A stretch of DNA of 64,000 nucleotides from Haloarcula mannanilytica (GCF_005406125.1 NZ_BIXZ01000002.1:124001-188000), one strand, 5' to 3'. Counted from the stretch's first letter, positions 38,665 to 46,287 are shown. Notes: generated by a model not told the origin, from the sequence alone. Numbers and translations are program-made.

Positions 38665-39375
38665 ATGCGTCAGATATCCAGACGACAGATACTCCGAGCC
38701 GCGTGTGTGGGAGCGGTCGCGCTCGCCGGTTGTAGTAGCGATCAGGCGAATGAGTCAGGTGCGACTGAGAGTGACGGCGGCGGTGCCGAAACACCCGAGG
38801 GATCGACTGATGAGATGGAGACGGATACCCCGACAGACAGCGGAGGGCAGCCACAGTTCGGGCAGACAGCCCGGTTCCCGGAGTCGTATGCGATGACGAT
38901 GACGACGGAATCGGAGGGCCAGACCGTCGAGATGACTGGCCGGTTCTACGAAGGCGATATGTACGTGACATTCGAGCAGCAAGGGCAGCAGATGGAACTG
39001 TACCACATCGGGGATACGACCTACACCGTTGCCGGCGGACAGTGTATCATGGGGACGATGCAACAGGGGATGGACCGCGAGGATGTCGACCCCAGTGAGT
39101 TCTCCGACCGGGCAGAGCAGAACCCGGATATCACACCAGTCGGTCGAGAGACCATCGACGGCGACGAGGTCCTGGTGTATGAACTCTCACAGAGCGGGAC
39201 CGACGAGCCAGTCACGTATTATATCCTCGCAGACTCCGGCTACCCGCGCCGCATCGAGACCGGGCGGACGCGCTGGGACTTCCACTCGTGGGGAGATGTC
39301 GACCCGATTCAGGAACCTGACGCGGACTGCCAGTCGATGCCTAGTGGTGGTATGACGGCCAACAGCGGGAACTGA
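38665..39375 (+). CDS. Tat-exported lipoprotein of unknown function
   Basis: A 236-residue secreted protein. The N-terminus has RRQILRAACVGAVALAGC, combining a twin-arginine motif and a lipobox with cysteine 23. A low-complexity acidic linker follows. The rest (from about residue 65) is beta-rich, with TTESEGQTVEMTGRFYEGDMYV and VTYYILADSGYPRRIETG, reminiscent of LolA-type or related lipid-binding beta-sheet folds. The role is unknown. Strong TATA sequence (TATATTTATATA, about 38630-38642) lies 25-35 nt upstream. Confidence 0.78.
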   Translation: MRQISRRQILRAACVGAVALAGCSSDQANESGATESDGGGAETPEGSTDEMETDTPTDSGGQPQFGQTARFPESYAMTMTTESEGQTVEMTGRFYEGDMYVTFEQQGQQMELYHIGDTTYTVAGGQCIMGTMQQGMDREDVDPSEFSDRAEQNPDITPVGRETIDGDEVLVYELSQSGTDEPVTYYILADSGYPRRIETGRTRWDFHSWGDVDPIQEPDADCQSMPSGGMTANSGN

Positions 39376-39459: not shown

Positions 39460-41556
39460 ATGGCGACCGCCGAGAACACCGAACTCATCGACCGCTTCGA
39501 GGAGTTCTACCGCAACTACTACCGCAACGAGATCGGTGAGCTCGCCCAGAAATATCCCAACGACCAGAAGTCGCTGTACATCGACTGGGACGACCTCTAT
39601 CGCTTCGACCCGGACCTGGCCGACGACTACCGCACCAAGCCCGAGCAGATACAGGAGTACGCCGAGGAGGCCCTGCGACTGTACGACCTCCCGGTCGACG
39701 TGTCGCTCGGGCAGGCCCACGTCCGCGTCCGAAACCTCCCTGATTCGGAGGATATCCGTGACCTGCGCCACGAACACCACGGCAACCTCGTCGCCGTCCG
39801 TGGGATCATCCGGAAAGCGACCGACGTGCGCCCGAAGGTCATCGAGGCGGCCTTCGAGTGCCAGCGCTGTGGCACGCTCACGCGCATCCCCCAGACCGCC
39901 GGCGACTTTCAAGAACCTCACGACTGCCAGGGCTGTGAACGCCAGGGGCCGTTCCGGCTCAACACCGACCAATCGCAGTTCATCGACGCCCAGAAGCTCC
40001 GCGTGCAGGAATCACCCGAGGGCCTGCGCGGCGGCGAGACGCCCCAGTCCATCGACATCAACATCGAGGACGATATCACCGGCGAGGTGACCGCCGGCGA
40101 CCACGTCCGCGTGACCGGCATCCTCAAACTCGACCAGCGGGGCAACGACAACGAAAAGTCCCCGATGTTCGACATCTATATGGAGGGCGTCAGCGTCGAA
40201 ATTGAGGACGAGCAGTTCGAGGACATGGAGATCACCGACGCCGACAAGAAGGAAATCGTCGAACTGTCGAACGAACCCGACATCTACGACAAGATGGTCG
40301 GGGCCATCGCTCCCTCCATCTACGGCTACGAGAAGGAGAAGCTCGCGATGATGCTCCAGCTCTTCTCGGGCGTGACCAAGGAGCTTCCTGACGGATCTCG
40401 AATACGTGGCGACCTCCATATGTTGCTGATAGGAGACCCAGGAACCGGTAAATCTCAGATGCTATCATATATAGAGAATATCGCACCACGCTCCGTCTAC
40501 ACCTCCGGGAAGGGGTCGTCGAGCGCGGGGCTGACCGCCGCGGCCGTGCGCGACGACTTCGGCGACGGCCAACAGTGGACGCTGGAAGCCGGTGCGCTCG
40601 TGCTCGCCGACCAGGGCATCGCCGCTATCGACGAACTCGATAAGATGAGCCCGGAGGACCGCTCAGCGATGCACGAAGCGCTGGAGCAGCAGCGTATCAG
40701 CGTCTCCAAGGCGGGAATCAACGCAACACTCAAATCTCGCTGTTCGCTGCTGGGCGCGGCCAACCCCAAGTACGGGCGCTTCGATCAGTACGAGCCCATC
40801 GGGGAGCAGATCGACCTCGAACCGGCGCTTATCTCCCGGTTTGACCTCATCTTCACCGTGACGGACAAGCCCGACGAGGAGAAAGACCGCAACCTCGCCG
40901 AGCACATCATCCAGACCAACTACGCCGGCGAACTCCACACCCACCGGACGGAGAACCCGACCTCGAACTTCAGCGAGGAGGAGGTCGGCACCGTCACCGA
41001 GGAGGTCGCACCGACCATCGAACCGGACCTGCTCAGAAAGTACGTCGCCTACGCCAAGCGTAACTGCTTCCCGACGATGACTGAGGAGGCGAAAAGCCGC
41101 ATCGAGGACTTCTACGTCGACCTACGGATGAAAGGCCAGGACGAGGACGCGCCAGTGCCGGTCACCGCCCGGAAACTGGAGGCGCTGGTCCGATTGGCCG
41201 AGGCTTCTGCGCGTATTCGCCTCTCGGACACCGTCGACGAGGCCGACGCCGACCGCGCGGTCGACATCGCTCACTATTGCCTGAAAGAAATCGGCGTCGA
41301 CCCCGAGACCGGCGAGTTCGACGCCGACGTGGTCGAGACGGGCCAATCGAAGACCCAGCGCGACCGCATCCAGAACATCAAGGGCATCATCTCGGACATC
41401 GAGGACGAGTACGACGAGGGCGCACCCGCCGACGTGGTCATCGAGCGCGCCGAGGAGGTCGGTATCGACGAGTCCAAGGCCGAACACGAGATCGACAAGC
41501 TAAAACAGAAAGGCGAGGTGTACGAGCCTCGAACGGACCACCTCCGGACGACCTGA
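39460..41556 (+). CDS. mcm: Replicative DNA helicase MCM
   Basis: A 698-residue MCM protein. N-terminal domains include a zinc finger (CQRC and CQGC) and the OB fold. The AAA+ core has Walker A GDPGTGKS (325-332), Walker B IAAIDELDKM and the arginine finger SRFDLIF. A C-terminal winged helix ends the protein. It forms the hexameric replication helicase. No intein is present, although inteins occur at sites near this P-loop in other haloarchaeal MCMs. Codons 309-343, over the P-loop, are AT-rich and unlike the rest (separate entry). ATG 39460 follows a CATAACC box. Confidence 0.96.
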   Translation: MATAENTELIDRFEEFYRNYYRNEIGELAQKYPNDQKSLYIDWDDLYRFDPDLADDYRTKPEQIQEYAEEALRLYDLPVDVSLGQAHVRVRNLPDSEDIRDLRHEHHGNLVAVRGIIRKATDVRPKVIEAAFECQRCGTLTRIPQTAGDFQEPHDCQGCERQGPFRLNTDQSQFIDAQKLRVQESPEGLRGGETPQSIDINIEDDITGEVTAGDHVRVTGILKLDQRGNDNEKSPMFDIYMEGVSVEIEDEQFEDMEITDADKKEIVELSNEPDIYDKMVGAIAPSIYGYEKEKLAMMLQLFSGVTKELPDGSRIRGDLHMLLIGDPGTGKSQMLSYIENIAPRSVYTSGKGSSSAGLTAAAVRDDFGDGQQWTLEAGALVLADQGIAAIDELDKMSPEDRSAMHEALEQQRISVSKAGINATLKSRCSLLGAANPKYGRFDQYEPIGEQIDLEPALISRFDLIFTVTDKPDEEKDRNLAEHIIQTNYAGELHTHRTENPTSNFSEEEVGTVTEEVAPTIEPDLLRKYVAYAKRNCFPTMTEEAKSRIEDFYVDLRMKGQDEDAPVPVTARKLEALVRLAEASARIRLSDTVDEADADRAVDIAHYCLKEIGVDPETGEFDADVVETGQSKTQRDRIQNIKGIISDIEDEYDEGAPADVVIERAEEVGIDESKAEHEIDKLKQKGEVYEPRTDHLRTT
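40384..40488 (+). other. Low-GC codon tract across the MCM P-loop
   Basis: In these 35 codons 22 end in A or T, including three ATA, CGA, CTA, TCA, TAT and AAA. Codons on each side almost always end in G or C. The protein sequence stays fully conserved (IGDPGTGKSQML). The boundaries are sharp. This suggests gene conversion from a lower-GC donor at the known intein insertion region rather than drift. Confidence 0.85.
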
Positions 41557-41557
41557 T

Positions 41558-41830
41558 ATGGACCGGATCTCCGCGCTCCGCAACATCGAGGAGGCCCTGG
41601 CCGAGTTCGAGGCCGGGTCGCAGTCGCTGGCTGATCTTGAACGGGACGTTCGCGGAACACTGCGGACCTACGCGACGGAGTTCGAGGGGGACTTACAGGC
41701 CTACCGGGCCAGTGGTGGGACCGCAGTGGACGGTCTCGTCGTCCTTGCGCCGTCGGAGACAGCGGCCCGCGAGCGGGTGCAAGACCTCGTCTCGGACACC
41801 GGGGAGTTCACCGTCACAGCCGTCGAATAG
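41558..41830 (+). CDS. Conserved haloarchaeal protein downstream of MCM (DUF7854-like)
   Basis: A 90-residue protein, MDRISALRNIEEALAEFEAG, with an N-terminal helix and a C-terminal alpha/beta part (GLVVLAPSETAARERVQDLV). It begins 1 nt after the MCM stop, so it is co-transcribed with the helicase. I believe this family is numbered DUF7854, but could not check. No function is known; the tight linkage suggests a role with MCM or replication. Confidence 0.72.
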   Translation: MDRISALRNIEEALAEFEAGSQSLADLERDVRGTLRTYATEFEGDLQAYRASGGTAVDGLVVLAPSETAARERVQDLVSDTGEFTVTAVE

Positions 41831-41964
41831 GATTGTACCGCTGTAGCTGCTGTCGGCGTATTCTACAGGACGTACCGTAGTGCTCACTCTCGGGTCCGAC
41901 GGCTACCATATTTTCTGCTTCATCCGCCCATATATTCACTCCATTCTAAATTCAATTCAATAAA

Positions 41965-41974
41965 ATTATATAGT
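41965..41974 (+). promoter_or_regulatory. TATA region of the DUF7855-MinD run
   Basis: An AATTATATAG-like stretch within an AT-rich island (about 41935-41985) lies about 30 nt before GTG 41996. The 165-nt gap between the MCM-linked gene and this promoter shows no gene. The island is unusually AT-rich for the window. Confidence 0.55.
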
Positions 41975-41995
41975 AATAATACTAATCCCCAGCTA

Positions 41996-42331
41996 GTGCT
42001 ACTCGTCGTTACCTACTCCCGGACGGCACGCACGGACCTGCGGAACATCTGTCGTGCCCACGAGGACTGTGTCGTTCGACAGTTCGGGAGAGCAGCGTTG
42101 TTCTCCGGAACCGAGTTCGGGGCCTTCCAGGCGCTCCGACTCTACGAGAAACACGGGCTCGACGTTCAGATCGAGCGCGTCGAGCCGTTCGAGCCGTCGG
42201 ATGTCCCGGAACACGTCCGCAAAGCGGCCGAGAGCTACGAGGCGCGGGAGGAACCGGCGACACCATACAAGCGGTTCGCGTCAGGGCGTGACCTTCCGGA
42301 CCCGGACCAACTCCGAGGCGTCGATCTGTGA
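41996..42331 (+). CDS. Conserved haloarchaeal protein (DUF7855-like)
   Basis: A 111-residue protein. The N-terminal half, MLLVVTYSRTARTDLRNICRAHEDCVVRQFG, then ALFSGTEFGAFQALRLYEKHGLDVQIERV, suggests a small alpha/beta domain. The C-terminus is an extended tail with PYKRFASGRDLPDPDQLRG. I do not recognise a function. GTG 41996 is supported by the TATA box; its TGA overlaps the next GTG start by 4 nt, the first of several couplings in this run. Confidence 0.72.
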   Translation: MLLVVTYSRTARTDLRNICRAHEDCVVRQFGRAALFSGTEFGAFQALRLYEKHGLDVQIERVEPFEPSDVPEHVRKAAESYEAREEPATPYKRFASGRDLPDPDQLRGVDL

Positions 42332-43137
42332 AGCTGCGCGTCACTGAAACCACGTACGCGGGTACTGTCATCGACCTCCGAACACGAGCAGTCGACGGGA
42401 AAGCTATCGCCGCGAGTATCCGCGGGCAGCGAACCCTCCCGATCGTATCCTGTCCGGAGCCGCCGTCCGTGTACGCCTACGCCGGACACGTCCACCCGTC
42501 GATGGGACTGCGAACGCGGACCGCGCTCGCGGCCGCCGCCAGGTCACTGGGGCATGAGACACCACAGGACGACGCGATTGCGGACTGCCGGGAGCGACTG
42601 GCCGAGCTCGATTGTTCGACGCCAGACCTCCCCGAGCCAGTCGATCCGGTGTCGGACGTGACGATCGATGGCCTACAGGAGGCGGTTGCCACCCACCGCG
42701 GCCGCCTCACCGCTCGACGGGCCGTCGGTGCGGATGACGGGGCAGTGCAGGCTGACCTCCGGGATGCCGCGATGGAACTGAGCGAACGGGAGACGCGACG
42801 GGCTGCCGCCAGGGAGACACGCGAACTCCGGCGCGAGCAGGCCCGCGCCTACCGCGACACGCTGGAGGAGCGGCGACGGCTTTCCGACGAGCTGGCCAAC
42901 CGCCGGCGGTGCGCTCGGGCGACCCTCGTCGACCGGCTCTCCGATGCGTTCAGTCAAGCAATCGCAACCGTTCCGGGATCAGTTCCGGATAATCCGTTCG
43001 ACGCTGACCCTGTGACAGCCGCCCTGGCCGTACTCCGGGTCGCCCGAACACCAGCGCCGGTTGTCCTTGAAACGGACCGGTTCAGCTCACCGACGGCTGC
43101 GTCGGACTGCCTGGATGCGCCTCTCGTTCGCTGCTGA
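42328..43137 (+). CDS. Conserved haloarchaeal protein with central coiled coil (DUF7856-like)
   Basis: A 269-residue protein. An N-terminal beta-rich segment leads to VYAYAGHVHPSMGLRTRTALAAAARSLG. A long helical coiled-coil region (about 140-200, with RDAAMELSERETRRAAARETRELRREQ) and a C-terminal alpha/beta part with DPVTAALAVLRVARTPAPVVLETD follow. The overall layout, a core plus coiled coil, suggests a structural or scaffolding role. GTG 42328 overlaps the preceding stop. No named family beyond the haloarchaeal DUF is known to me. Confidence 0.72.
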   Translation: MKLRVTETTYAGTVIDLRTRAVDGKAIAASIRGQRTLPIVSCPEPPSVYAYAGHVHPSMGLRTRTALAAAARSLGHETPQDDAIADCRERLAELDCSTPDLPEPVDPVSDVTIDGLQEAVATHRGRLTARRAVGADDGAVQADLRDAAMELSERETRRAAARETRELRREQARAYRDTLEERRRLSDELANRRRCARATLVDRLSDAFSQAIATVPGSVPDNPFDADPVTAALAVLRVARTPAPVVLETDRFSSPTAASDCLDAPLVRC

Positions 43138-43169
43138 CTTTTAAATCGGAAGGCCGGGCCACCGTCCCT

Positions 43170-43946
43170 ATGGTTACGTTCGACTGCCGCGCCAAGCGAG
43201 TCGACGGCGTGACGCTCGTCACGGCGACCGTCGGCGACATCGCTGCACCGACTCGGATTACCGTCCGGAACTGTCTCGACGGCCCCCTCTGGCCACCGAG
43301 ACAGCAGGGTGTCCCCGAAGCCGGCTGGAGCGAGGAGGGCTTTGAAGGGGTCGTTGGCCCGGGCACACACGCGCTCGGGTATGCGACGCCGGCTCCCCCA
43401 GCCGACCAGCCGGCGGAGTTGGTCGGGGCCGAGCCCGCTTCCGAAGATGCCCCAGCCGATGAGCGACTCGACTCCGAGGACGCTGTGGTCAGGGAACTCG
43501 GCGACCCGGCACCGCCTGCGGACGCAGTGCCTGCGGGCGAGCCGGGGGAGGCGGCTGCTGCGGAGGGTCGCCAGCCGGACATACCCTCGGTCGAGGGAGG
43601 CGACAGGCAGGCGGACCGACAGCCAGCGGTTGTTCAACCGTCAGGCCGATCAAGGGCTGCTTCCGGTCGGCGGTCGGAGCAGCAGCTCCCTGCGGCTGTC
43701 TCTCAGTGGCTCGACACCGTTGCTCGGCGCGTCGACCGTGCCGAGCGGCTGGACGGGGCGGACTCCCTGTCGGCAGCGACGGCTGCGGTTCGCGCGGCGG
43801 ACGGTCTGTCGGGCGTCCGGGCAGTCGCCACACGCGGTGCTGCGGACGAACGGATGCTCCGGGCACTGGCCCGCCGGGCCGAACAGCTCGCGGACCGACG
43901 GGCGGCCGCTACGGTGCCGACCGAGACGCTGTCCCGCCTCGCATGA
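43170..43946 (+). CDS. Conserved haloarchaeal protein (DUF7857-like)
   Basis: A 258-residue protein. A conserved N-terminal beta domain (FDCRAKRVDGVTLVTATVGD, NCLDGPLWPPRQQGVPE and EGVVGPGTHALGYATP) occupies about residues 1-75. A disordered Ala/Pro/Glu linker (75-175) and a helical C-terminal domain (AAVSQWLDTVARRVDRAERL) follow. It overlaps the MinD gene by ATGA, making the two translationally coupled, so this is the best candidate for a MinD partner. Confidence 0.75.
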   Translation: MVTFDCRAKRVDGVTLVTATVGDIAAPTRITVRNCLDGPLWPPRQQGVPEAGWSEEGFEGVVGPGTHALGYATPAPPADQPAELVGAEPASEDAPADERLDSEDAVVRELGDPAPPADAVPAGEPGEAAAAEGRQPDIPSVEGGDRQADRQPAVVQPSGRSRAASGRRSEQQLPAAVSQWLDTVARRVDRAERLDGADSLSAATAAVRAADGLSGVRAVATRGAADERMLRALARRAEQLADRRAAATVPTETLSRLA

Positions 43947-44659
43947 TTGTGGCGGTCACCGGCGGTAAAGGAGGTGTCGGCAAATCGACCATCGCGTACA
44001 ACCTCGCGGCGGAACTCGACAGCGTAGGACGCGCTGACAGCAGTGCCTCGCACCCGAGCGCGAACCCGGGGAGCGTTGTCGTCGACAGCGACCTCGGGAT
44101 GGCGGACCTGCCGTCCAGTCGCGGACCCGACCTGCACGACGTGCTTGCCGGCCGCGCCGACCCCCACGAAGCGATCCGCGAGGGCGGCCCCGTGACCGTT
44201 ATTCCCTGCGGGCGGACGCTGGCCGGCGCTCGGAGCGCGGATCTACAGGCACTCACAGATGTATTCGCCGCGCTGGAGCGGACCTACCGCTGGGTCGTCG
44301 TCGACTCGCCGGCCGGGCTACACGCCGATGTCGGCCTGCCCCTCGCAGCCGCCGACGCCGCGCTACTCGTGACGACGCCCGAGAGCGCGGCCCTCGCCGA
44401 CGCGCTCCGGGTCCGGGCATTGGCCCGCGAACTCGACGCCGGACTCTGCCGGGTCGTCCTCAACCGGGCCGGTCCGAACCCCGCGACCGAAGCCGTCGCG
44501 GACCGGTTCGGTGCGCCGGCTGTCGCGATTCCCGAGAGCGAACCGCTAGCGACGGCACAGTCCCACGGACAGCCGCTTCGAGAAACAGCGCCGGACGCGC
44601 CAGCGAGACAATCGCTCGAAACGCTCGCCGACGCCGTTTATTCCTGTAGCTCGGTGTAA
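43943..44659 (+). CDS. MinD/ParA-family ATPase
   Basis: A 238-residue deviant-Walker P-loop ATPase with GGKGGVGKST (7-16), a DSDLGMADL switch and DSPAGLHADV (Walker B). It lacks an obvious C-terminal amphipathic membrane helix. An insertion between the P-loop and second strand (RADSSASHPSANPG) is unusual. MinD/ParA proteins position structures by dimerising on a surface in an ATP-dependent way. Overlap with the DUF7857-like gene and the TFB gene places it in the conserved MCM-linked run. Confidence 0.88.
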   Translation: MIVAVTGGKGGVGKSTIAYNLAAELDSVGRADSSASHPSANPGSVVVDSDLGMADLPSSRGPDLHDVLAGRADPHEAIREGGPVTVIPCGRTLAGARSADLQALTDVFAALERTYRWVVVDSPAGLHADVGLPLAAADAALLVTTPESAALADALRVRALARELDAGLCRVVLNRAGPNPATEAVADRFGAPAVAIPESEPLATAQSHGQPLRETAPDAPARQSLETLADAVYSCSSV

Positions 44660-45498
44660 GTCCCACGCAACGTGACCGGCGTCACGTCTGCCACATCCGC
44701 CGCCTCGGCCTGGGTAAGCGCTACGTCTTGCTCCTGGGCCGCGGTGTAAAGACAGGCCGCGGCAACACCCGCGGGATTGCGGCCGCTGACGAGGCTGCGG
44801 TCCTGTGCTTCGTCGACGAGTTGCTCGGCGCGCTGACGGACCGCCGTCGGCAGGTCCAGCGTCGTCGCAAACCGGGGGACGTACTCGCGTGGGTCTATCG
44901 GGCCGGTCGGCAGCCCGAGTTCTCTGTTCAGCGCGTCGTAGGCCGCGCGAAGCTCCGCCTGGGTCGCCTTGGCGACAGTACAGAGTTCGTCGATAGTCCG
45001 GGCAACCCCTTCGGTCCGGCAGGTGGCGTAGATGGCCGCGGCTGCGAACCCTTCCAGCGTTCGCCCCTGAAGTAGATCTTCCTTCTGTGCGGATTCGAAC
45101 AGCACGCAGGCCCGGTCCCGAATCGCGTCCGAGAGCGCCATCGACCCGATGATGCGACGGATCTCGGTGAAGGCATACACCTTGTTGCGCTCGCGTTTCG
45201 AGCTGATCTGTGCGCGGTTGTGTTCGCGGCGGAGGCGGGCGAACTGCCGGCGCTTGCGCCCTTTCAACCGTGTCGACCGACCGATCTTCGTCGAGAGGCC
45301 GCGGTCGTGACGACTCCGTGTCAGCGGCGCGCCCGTGCGTGCCCGATCCGTGTCATCATCGTCGAAGGAGCGCCACTCCGGCCCGGGGTCGATGGCGTCC
45401 TCACCGACGACTAATCCACAGCTGCCACAGACCGACTCGACGCCCTGCTGTTTGACCGACCCGTTACACTCCGGACATTGCGTCACCGTCGTGCTCAT
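44638..45498 (-). CDS. tfb: Transcription initiation factor TFB
   Basis: A 286-residue TFIIB homologue. The zinc ribbon has C8, C11, C24 and C27. The B-reader/linker contains PLTRSRHDRGLSTKIG, then two cyclin folds. It bridges TBP-DNA and RNA polymerase. Haloarchaea have several TFBs with different promoter sets, and this one may be a specialised copy. Its 3' end overlaps the convergent MinD gene by 22 nt. It is in the opposite direction to the rest of the run. Confidence 0.93.
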   Translation of the reverse strand: MSTTVTQCPECNGSVKQQGVESVCGSCGLVVGEDAIDPGPEWRSFDDDDTDRARTGAPLTRSRHDRGLSTKIGRSTRLKGRKRRQFARLRREHNRAQISSKRERNKVYAFTEIRRIIGSMALSDAIRDRACVLFESAQKEDLLQGRTLEGFAAAAIYATCRTEGVARTIDELCTVAKATQAELRAAYDALNRELGLPTGPIDPREYVPRFATTLDLPTAVRQRAEQLVDEAQDRSLVSGRNPAGVAAACLYTAAQEQDVALTQAEAADVADVTPVTLRGTYTELQE

Positions 45499-45668
45499 GT
45501 TTCCACCTACGGTCGGATGGAGGGTTAAAAAACCGATTCAGCAGCGGGTATTCGGCCGGTTTTCGCTGAAATTGCCTACCGGTTACCGGTAGGTAAATAC
45601 TGGTGGATGTGGTGGTGCGTGTCGAGATACCGACACCATTAAATTCCGCAGATAAGAACCGTATTTTA

Positions 45669-46163
45669 ATGGCATTGTCGGACATCGCCGCCGGCGTCGA
45701 GGTCACGACTTACCAGCGCGACCGCGGCGTCGCCGCTGTCGATGAGACGGACGCGCCGCTCTCGGAGCGGCTGGCTCCGGTCGCCGACGAATTGCCGTGT
45801 TCGGCAGCGACAGCGGCGACGGTCATCGAAGCCTACGCAGCCGGTAAGAGTGTCGGCGATGCGGGCCGTGCCGCCGGTATTGCGCCCGTGACCGCCGCCA
45901 AGACGCTCCATCTCGTCGGCGAGCAAGTGTCCCCGGTTGGTCCGCAAGGGCGTGAGATACTCACCGATTGGCTCGCCGGGGACCTCTCACGGAGCGACGC
46001 TATCGCACTCGCCGGCGTGACCGAGCGGGAGTTTGCCCTGGCGGCGTACATCGAAACCCACGAGCCGCTGCCGGCGGCCCGGGATGCGGTGGAGGGCGCG
46101 CTTACAACTGAGGAACGGGACCCGTTAGGGGAGACGATGAGCGACATCGGCGAGCTACTGTGA
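45669..46163 (+). CDS. Conserved haloarchaeal protein (DUF7858-like), helix-turn-helix features
   Basis: A 164-residue, mostly helical protein. Residues about 48-75 (VIEAYAAGKSVGDAGRAAGIAPVTAAKTLHL) and 106-125 (SDAIALAGVTEREFALAAYI) resemble HTH-like repeats. The N-terminus MALSDIAAGVEVTTYQRDRGVA is shared with TFB-adjacent proteins. It is divergent from TFB and could act on transcription. ATG 45669 is chosen because a TTAAATT box lies about 27 nt upstream. Its last codons are included in the tandem repeat that follows. Confidence 0.75.
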   Translation: MALSDIAAGVEVTTYQRDRGVAAVDETDAPLSERLAPVADELPCSAATAATVIEAYAAGKSVGDAGRAAGIAPVTAAKTLHLVGEQVSPVGPQGREILTDWLAGDLSRSDAIALAGVTEREFALAAYIETHEPLPAARDAVEGALTTEERDPLGETMSDIGELL

Positions 46164-46287
46164 GTCTTTGGGCACTGTACTCTCGCTGAGGTCGGGAGTG
46201 AGCGACATCGGCGAGCTACTGTGAATCTTTGGGCACTGTACTCTCGCCGAGATCGGGAGTGAGCGACATCGGCGAGCTACTGTGAGT
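46138..46287. repeat. 61-bp tandem repeat capturing the gene 3' end, 2.4 copies
   Basis: Copies start at 46138, 46199 and 46260 (the last partial to about 46287). The unit includes the final codons of the upstream gene (SDIGELL and TGA). Copies 1 and 2 differ at about three positions. The 61-nt period is not a multiple of three, so the downstream copies do not extend the protein. This is a recent slippage or recombination duplication in the 188-nt gap before the GCS-like gene. Confidence 0.9.

Follow-up and report, generated by a model that had tools for sequence, protein, structure and literature searches.

A MinD1-clade ATPase gene overlapping its DUF7857 neighbour and a TFB/DUF7858 gene pair around a candidate operator beside mcm of Haloarcula mannanilytica

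In a stretch of 64,000 nucleotides of Haloarcula mannanilytica DNA (GCF_005406125.1, NZ_BIXZ01000002.1:124001-188000; in the following "the window", with positions counted from its first letter), the gene of the replicative helicase MCM (39460..41556, plus strand; Pfam MCM, E 3.7e-93) is followed at 41558-46163 by genes for five DUF proteins, a MinD-type ATPase and the initiation factor TFB. DUF7854 (90 aa; 41558..41830, plus strand; PF25252, E 1.1e-35) starts 2 nt 3' of mcm and forms the second gene of its unit. The run of genes is then interrupted by an AT-rich gap of 165 nt with a TATA-like box (ATAAAATTATATAG, 41960..41973, plus strand; identified from the sequence and the comparative promoter signal), behind which DUF7855 (111 aa; 41996..42331, plus strand; PF25253, E 1.5e-50) and DUF7856 (269 aa; 42328..43137, plus strand; PF25254, E 5.2e-69) overlap by 4 nt. 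A further TATA-like box (TTTTAAAT, 43139..43146, plus strand; identified from the sequence and a comparative A/T peak), with TTTAAAT standing 5' of the gene, precedes DUF7857 (258 aa; 43170..43946, plus strand; PF25256, E 2.5e-32), which again overlaps by 4 nt with minD1, the gene of a MinD1-clade ATPase (238 aa, P-loop KGGVGKST; 43943..44659, plus strand; assigned by TIGR01969, family alignment and tree). The TFIIB-type factor TFB (44638..45498, minus strand; PF00382, E 2.6e-42) converges on minD1 with a 22-nt overlap, and DUF7858 (164 aa, candidate helix-turn-helix (HTH) regulator; 45669..46163, plus strand; PF25257, E 7.6e-72) is divergent from TFB; a palindrome without strand assignment that is conserved across TFB/DUF7858 loci (45572..45596, candidate operator) lies between the two.

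All genes named by a first-pass annotation, made from the sequence alone, were recovered as open reading frames (ORFs) with Pfam matches, and its "DUF-like" proteins are true members of the respective families (PF25252-25257; E-values of the five proteins from 2.5e-32 to 7.6e-72). The 4-nt overlaps that it reported apply to DUF7855/DUF7856 and DUF7857/minD1; the run as a whole is not contiguous because of the 165-nt gap, and TFB does not follow minD1, being convergent with it on the opposite strand. The start of DUF7858 was moved from 45603 to the ATG at 45669, because the longer version matches Pfam only from residue 23 onwards, this methionine is conserved and a TATA-like box is suitably spaced.

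The division of the locus into transcription units was deduced from promoter signals, i.e. A/T-rich TATA-like stretches approximately 25-33 bp upstream of a gene in aligned homologous loci. An A/T run of at least 6 within -40 to -15 precedes DUF7855 in 31 of 40 loci; for DUF7857, 59 aligned loci show an A/T peak at -31 to -25 (run present in 31/59), and TATA signals of their own precede TFB (33/37) and DUF7858 (20/33), whereas practically none is found before DUF7854 (1/37), DUF7856 (1/32) and minD1 (0/58). According to these signals, the genes form five predicted units, namely mcm-DUF7854, DUF7855-DUF7856, DUF7857-minD1, TFB and DUF7858; a single long operon is ruled out, and the "one coupled run" of the first-pass annotation is not supported. 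The 4-nt overlap of DUF7855 and DUF7856 is kept in 24 of 32 loci.

The gene order is conserved well outside Haloarcula, as the first-pass annotation had put forward for checking: Among 60 DUF7857-anchored loci drawn across haloarchaeal families, 30 carry all eight genes, complete and ordered, and these represent 24 genera and six families; the full set was likewise present in 34 of 80 named DUF7858-anchored loci. Examples of the full set are Haloferax gibbonsii, H. prahovense, H. mucosum, Halogeometricum, Halobaculum and Haladaptatus. The order is not due to chance. In Halorubrum the block is present without loss in two parts (mcm through minD1, and TFB-DUF7858 with a ParA-like gene), and in some genomes (G136, G142, G097) the genes are wholly dispersed yet retained. 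DUF7857 was detected in 146 of 194 genomes of the class, and in a sample of the phylum DUF7858 was found in none of the genomes from outside this class; among 14 control genomes H. volcanii alone carries DUF7856, DUF7857 or DUF7858, and it has all three.

Within this block, DUF7857 and minD1 form a unit of two genes. The identical 4-nt overlap is found in 56 of 58 loci, with or without mcm nearby, and all pair-linked MinD proteins constitute one clade of the tree (support 100/100). A MinD1 profile separates orthologues (at least 250 bits) from every other MinD (at most 156 bits); by this measure, 47 of the 48 genomes without a PF25256 match also have no MinD1. The remaining genome (G129) was dropped as an exception to co-occurrence, since DUF7857 is present there upstream of MinD1 and had been overlooked by Pfam, so that all 48 genomes are consistent with joint presence or joint absence of the two. 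Many of these absences fall in one family, and the count is therefore not one of independent losses; in three genomes (G183, G018, G054) only the pair is gone, with DUF7855/DUF7856, TFB and DUF7858 retained. That the MinD is closely coupled to a partner, as claimed in the first-pass annotation, is supported by overlap and co-inheritance. The predicted structure of DUF7857 (AlphaFold2, AF2) begins with an Ig-like sandwich (residues 1-89, block means 89-98), from which a disordered linker leads to a helical C-terminal domain (175-257); structural searches returned generic Ig-like matches only (Z below 7). Sequence searches gave no convincing solved relatives for DUF7857, DUF7856 or DUF7858, defence-system models gave no match, and a literature search on the DUFs or HVO_0221, HVO_0223 and HVO_0224 returned nothing.

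By position, the MinD of the window corresponds to MinD1 (HVO_0225) of H. volcanii, to which it is probably orthologous: in Haloferax species the genes are arranged identically, MinD being the fifth gene after mcm; in H. volcanii, mcm is presumably HVO_0220 and DUF7857 presumably HVO_0224. The deviant Walker A motif KGGxGK(S/T) is present, with K9 invariant and K14 kept in at least 90% of 34 homologues, and D48, D50 and the VVVD-PAG motif are also conserved in the family alignment. The closest solved proteins are archaeal MinD (1hyq, E 1.1e-40; 1g3q, E 3.8e-38), and the positioning ATPases FlhG/FleN are also among the best solved matches, the match to an Fe-S carrier being far lower. The score against TIGR01969 (NCBIfam minD_arch; E 5.3e-38, 130.6 bits) lies below the curated cut-off of 201.75; judged by these profile scores, MinD1 is a divergent sub-clade of MinD-like ATPases outside the curated minD_arch family. 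Among the cluster genes of the window, no matches to MinE or MinC were found in Pfam or NCBIfam. MinD1 of the genus Haloarcula carries a 17-residue insertion (SVGRADSSASHPSANPG) before switch I that is missing from most other family members.

The pair also occurs away from mcm. Such a second copy, in which DUF7857 is short (approximately 120 aa), is present in family f3 and in part of the f1 genomes, and about a dozen of these loci adjoin a type IV pilus-like cluster with genes for a T2SSE ATPase, a PilC-like (T2SSF-like) protein, DUF7310, DUF7311, DUF7283, a HerA-like ATPase and a MinD-DUF7125 fusion. In the tree, the pilus-linked MinDs fall together with the mcm-linked f3 copies, which is what a copying of the pair from the mcm locus would lead one to expect. 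The mcm-linked MinD1 chain ends shortly past the final helix of the domain, while the pilus-linked form has approximately 10 residues more and is a little more basic. Linkage to a type IV/Tad-like pilus, as known for the TadZ/CpaE ATPases, is a property of the second-copy form only, no pilus genes being found in the 20 kb around the window copy; the receiver-like N-terminal domain of TadZ/CpaE is lacking, as MinD1 starts directly at the P-loop. Because DUF7857-MinD1 occurs without mcm in these clusters, the helicase is not needed for the job of the pair. The MinD-DUF7125 fusion beside the second-copy pair (L063:5886-7214 and similar loci) also gives a KaiC-like match in HMMER.

The palindrome between TFB and DUF7858, absent from the first-pass annotation, is a new feature of the locus. 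In the window it is represented by the 25-nt sequence TTGCCTACCGGTTACCGGTAGGTAA, midway between the two start codons and approximately 85 bp from each. Its core ACCGGTNACCGGT was recovered with at most two mismatches in 106 of 113 TFB/DUF7858 loci (shuffled control 1/33), and the 23-bp consensus is AACSTACCGGTNACCGGTASGTT. The centre mostly lies 72-76 or 82-86 bp upstream of DUF7858, i.e. at two positions one helical turn (about 10 bp) apart. At all six tested loci with TFB but without DUF7858 (four of family f3, one of f4, one of f1), the palindrome is missing or decayed (3 to 5 mismatches). Most cluster-bearing genomes tested contain one to three matches (G033 has seven), and the H. mannanilytica site is unique in its genome at up to one mismatch; a parS-like multi-site role is unsupported, given this single site. 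In the simplest reading, the palindrome is probably an operator bound by DUF7858. A ParA/MinD-like protein of approximately 250 aa is encoded 3' of DUF7858 and convergent with it in most genomes; in the genome studied here its gene lies about 100 kb from DUF7858 (G000:C2:273000-273710; L241:4992-5783). The P-loop of this DUF7858-neighbouring protein has lost both lysines in all 27 copies examined (typically ATGGAGTTR).

The AF2 model of DUF7856 (pLDDT 94) shows a split alpha/beta globular part whose halves are joined by a coiled-coil hairpin. In fold comparisons SMC and Rad50 heads rank first, but the matches are weak (best Foldseek E 0.015; Z 9.5 and rmsd 6.5 over 258 residues for Rad50 9q9h). 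A Walker A motif and an ABC signature are absent from the family alignment, and comparison with the SMC and Rad50 heads of haloarchaea by hhalign gave probabilities below 5%. Membership in SMC/Rad50 was therefore rejected on account of the missing motifs and the negative profile comparison, and the resemblance of the predicted fold is retained as a lead. In a set of 70 genomes selected as negative or atypical, DUF7856 and DUF7858 are both held by the same 10, in several of them far apart (G136, G142, G097, G129). In G100 an in-frame fusion joins the front of DUF7856 with the end of DUF7858 (L234:9692-10381), with DUF7857, minD1 and TFB removed; as one deletion fused the two remnants, this genome is not an independent case of their co-occurrence.

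With regard to chromosomal position, the cluster and the main orc1 gene are 45-434 kb apart in 45 genomes (median 187 kb), and on 23 complete chromosomes the cluster is always located within approximately 20% of the half-chromosome from this gene; smc and pilB, used as controls, are mostly farther away (0.13-0.70). This proximity to the origin may reflect mcm or shared ancestry, not MinD1.

Taken together, we read the locus as two conserved functional units beside mcm rather than one operon, i.e. a MinD/ParA-type switch with its partner and TFB/DUF7858 with a shared site, an interpretation in which our confidence and our doubt are about balanced. A single transcript, probably leaderless, would yield both DUF7857 and MinD1 by translational coupling. 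Binding of ATP through the KGGVGK(S/T)T P-loop would make MinD1 dimerise, and DUF7857, with its Ig-like domain and in many lineages a disordered linker and helical tail, would bind MinD1 as an adaptor, as a link to the cargo or as a regulator of the ATPase; a conserved NRLDGPxWPPR surface is the candidate contact site. The two proteins may place a membrane- or nucleoid-associated machine, the leading candidate cargo of the second copy being the pilus-like assembly machinery. DUF7858 would bind the palindrome that it shares with the divergent TFB, and so determine the levels of both DUF7858 and this TFB. The gene content, the fixed overlap, the joint inheritance of the pair, the promoter signals and the conserved palindrome are observations, while we infer the binding and the ATP cycle of the pair, its cargo and the palindrome-binding protein.

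Several observations weigh against this interpretation. In H. volcanii, deletion of all four minD genes leaves division and growth normal, and the motility of the quadruple mutant is no worse than that of the minD2/minD4 double mutant (PMC11588486, PMC11621097). The neighbour co-transcribed with MinD2, HVO_0596, has no deletion phenotype (PMC11588486), and coupling alone can therefore mislead. No C-terminal membrane helix is obvious in the main MinD1 form, the HTH_28 match of DUF7858 is weak (E 0.009), and in genus g3 DUF7857 stands beside DUF7856 without MinD1 (checked in G036/L045; three sister genomes of G036 have the same short PF25256 match). The cell-cycle system proposed in the first-pass annotation has no direct support, because MinD1 had already been named and the fourfold minD deletion causes neither a division nor a growth defect; a function of MinD1 is not reported, and a partner not described, in PMC11588486 or PMC11621097.

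An explanation that we regard as possible, if doubtful, dispenses with a common process altogether: ancestral haloarchaeal genes would merely have been kept near mcm and the origin, where regions may simply be stable, and only adjacent pairs would be functionally linked. The five promoter-defined units, the split of the Halorubrum block without loss and the dispersed yet retained genes of G136, G142 and G097 agree with it; the order held in six families, the same distribution of the non-adjacent DUF7856 and DUF7858, and the G100 block, lost in a single deletion joining both end genes, do not. The latter distribution, even where the genes are dispersed, would also suit a module of chromosome organisation or segregation, with MinD1 acting ParA-like on the nucleoid, DUF7858 as site-specific DNA binder and DUF7856 as SMC-like coiled-coil protein, kept near the main origin with mcm. 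We consider this unlikely: the locus is indeed origin-proximal, with smc and pilB mostly farther away, SMC and Rad50 heads are the best Foldseek matches of DUF7856 and the palindrome offers a candidate specific site, but the SMC likeness is architectural only (motifs lacking, hhalign negative), the palindrome, in contrast to clustered parS sites, stands at a promoter and in a single copy, and in pilus-like clusters the pair is also found at a great distance from the origin. The normal growth of the quadruple minD mutant likewise speaks against it, though polyploidy could mask a segregation defect. Still less probable is an origin-proximal, haloarchaeal chromosome-positioning system in which MinD1-DUF7857 would be ParA-like motor and adaptor, DUF7855-DUF7856 a reduced SMC-like part and DUF7858 the site-specific binder of a single palindrome marking the locus; some lineages would later have recruited the motor pair to pilus-like machines. 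That MinD1 might be a NUBPL/Mrp-like assembly or cofactor-loading ATPase, with DUF7857 as client or scaffold and no positioning at all, appears very improbable: MinD1 does match both CbiA and PF10609, the NUBPL/ParA model of Pfam, and a membrane-targeting helix is not evident, but archaeal MinD and FlhG/FleN are its best solved relatives, well above the Fe-S carrier, and its second copy is linked to appendage-type machinery.

Among known systems, MinD2-HVO_0596 of H. volcanii likewise combines a haloarchaeal MinD with a small, conserved partner from the same transcript, which is however encoded downstream of minD2 (PMC11588486), whereas DUF7857 lies upstream of minD1. The paralogue MinD4, by which archaella and chemosensory arrays are positioned, differs from MinD1 in having an extended C-terminal tail (PMC11588486, PMC11621097). 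FlhG/FleN and TadZ/CpaE are MinD-family ATPases that place appendage machines, comparable to the second copy of the pair in pilus-like clusters; unlike the FlhG/TadZ systems, MinD1 has no receiver-like N-terminal domain and no adjacent FlhF, and its mcm-linked copy is not beside pilus genes. The fixed, co-inherited DUF7857 and the pilus-cluster copy make MinD1 a testable two-protein system and point to assays of surface structures and of DNA positioning in a polyploid background. The palindrome kept across haloarchaeal families provides a concrete candidate for a DNA-binding protein, together with a site and targets for it; if DUF7858 does control the TFB dose, this would provide a simple handle on the tuning of one of several haloarchaeal initiation factors.

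At the margins of the locus, the ORF upstream of mcm (38665-39375) encodes a lipoprotein-like product with no relative among the 60 sampled loci, and a tandem repeat of 61 bp (2.4 copies, 96% match; window 46138-46285) begins within the 3' end of DUF7858.

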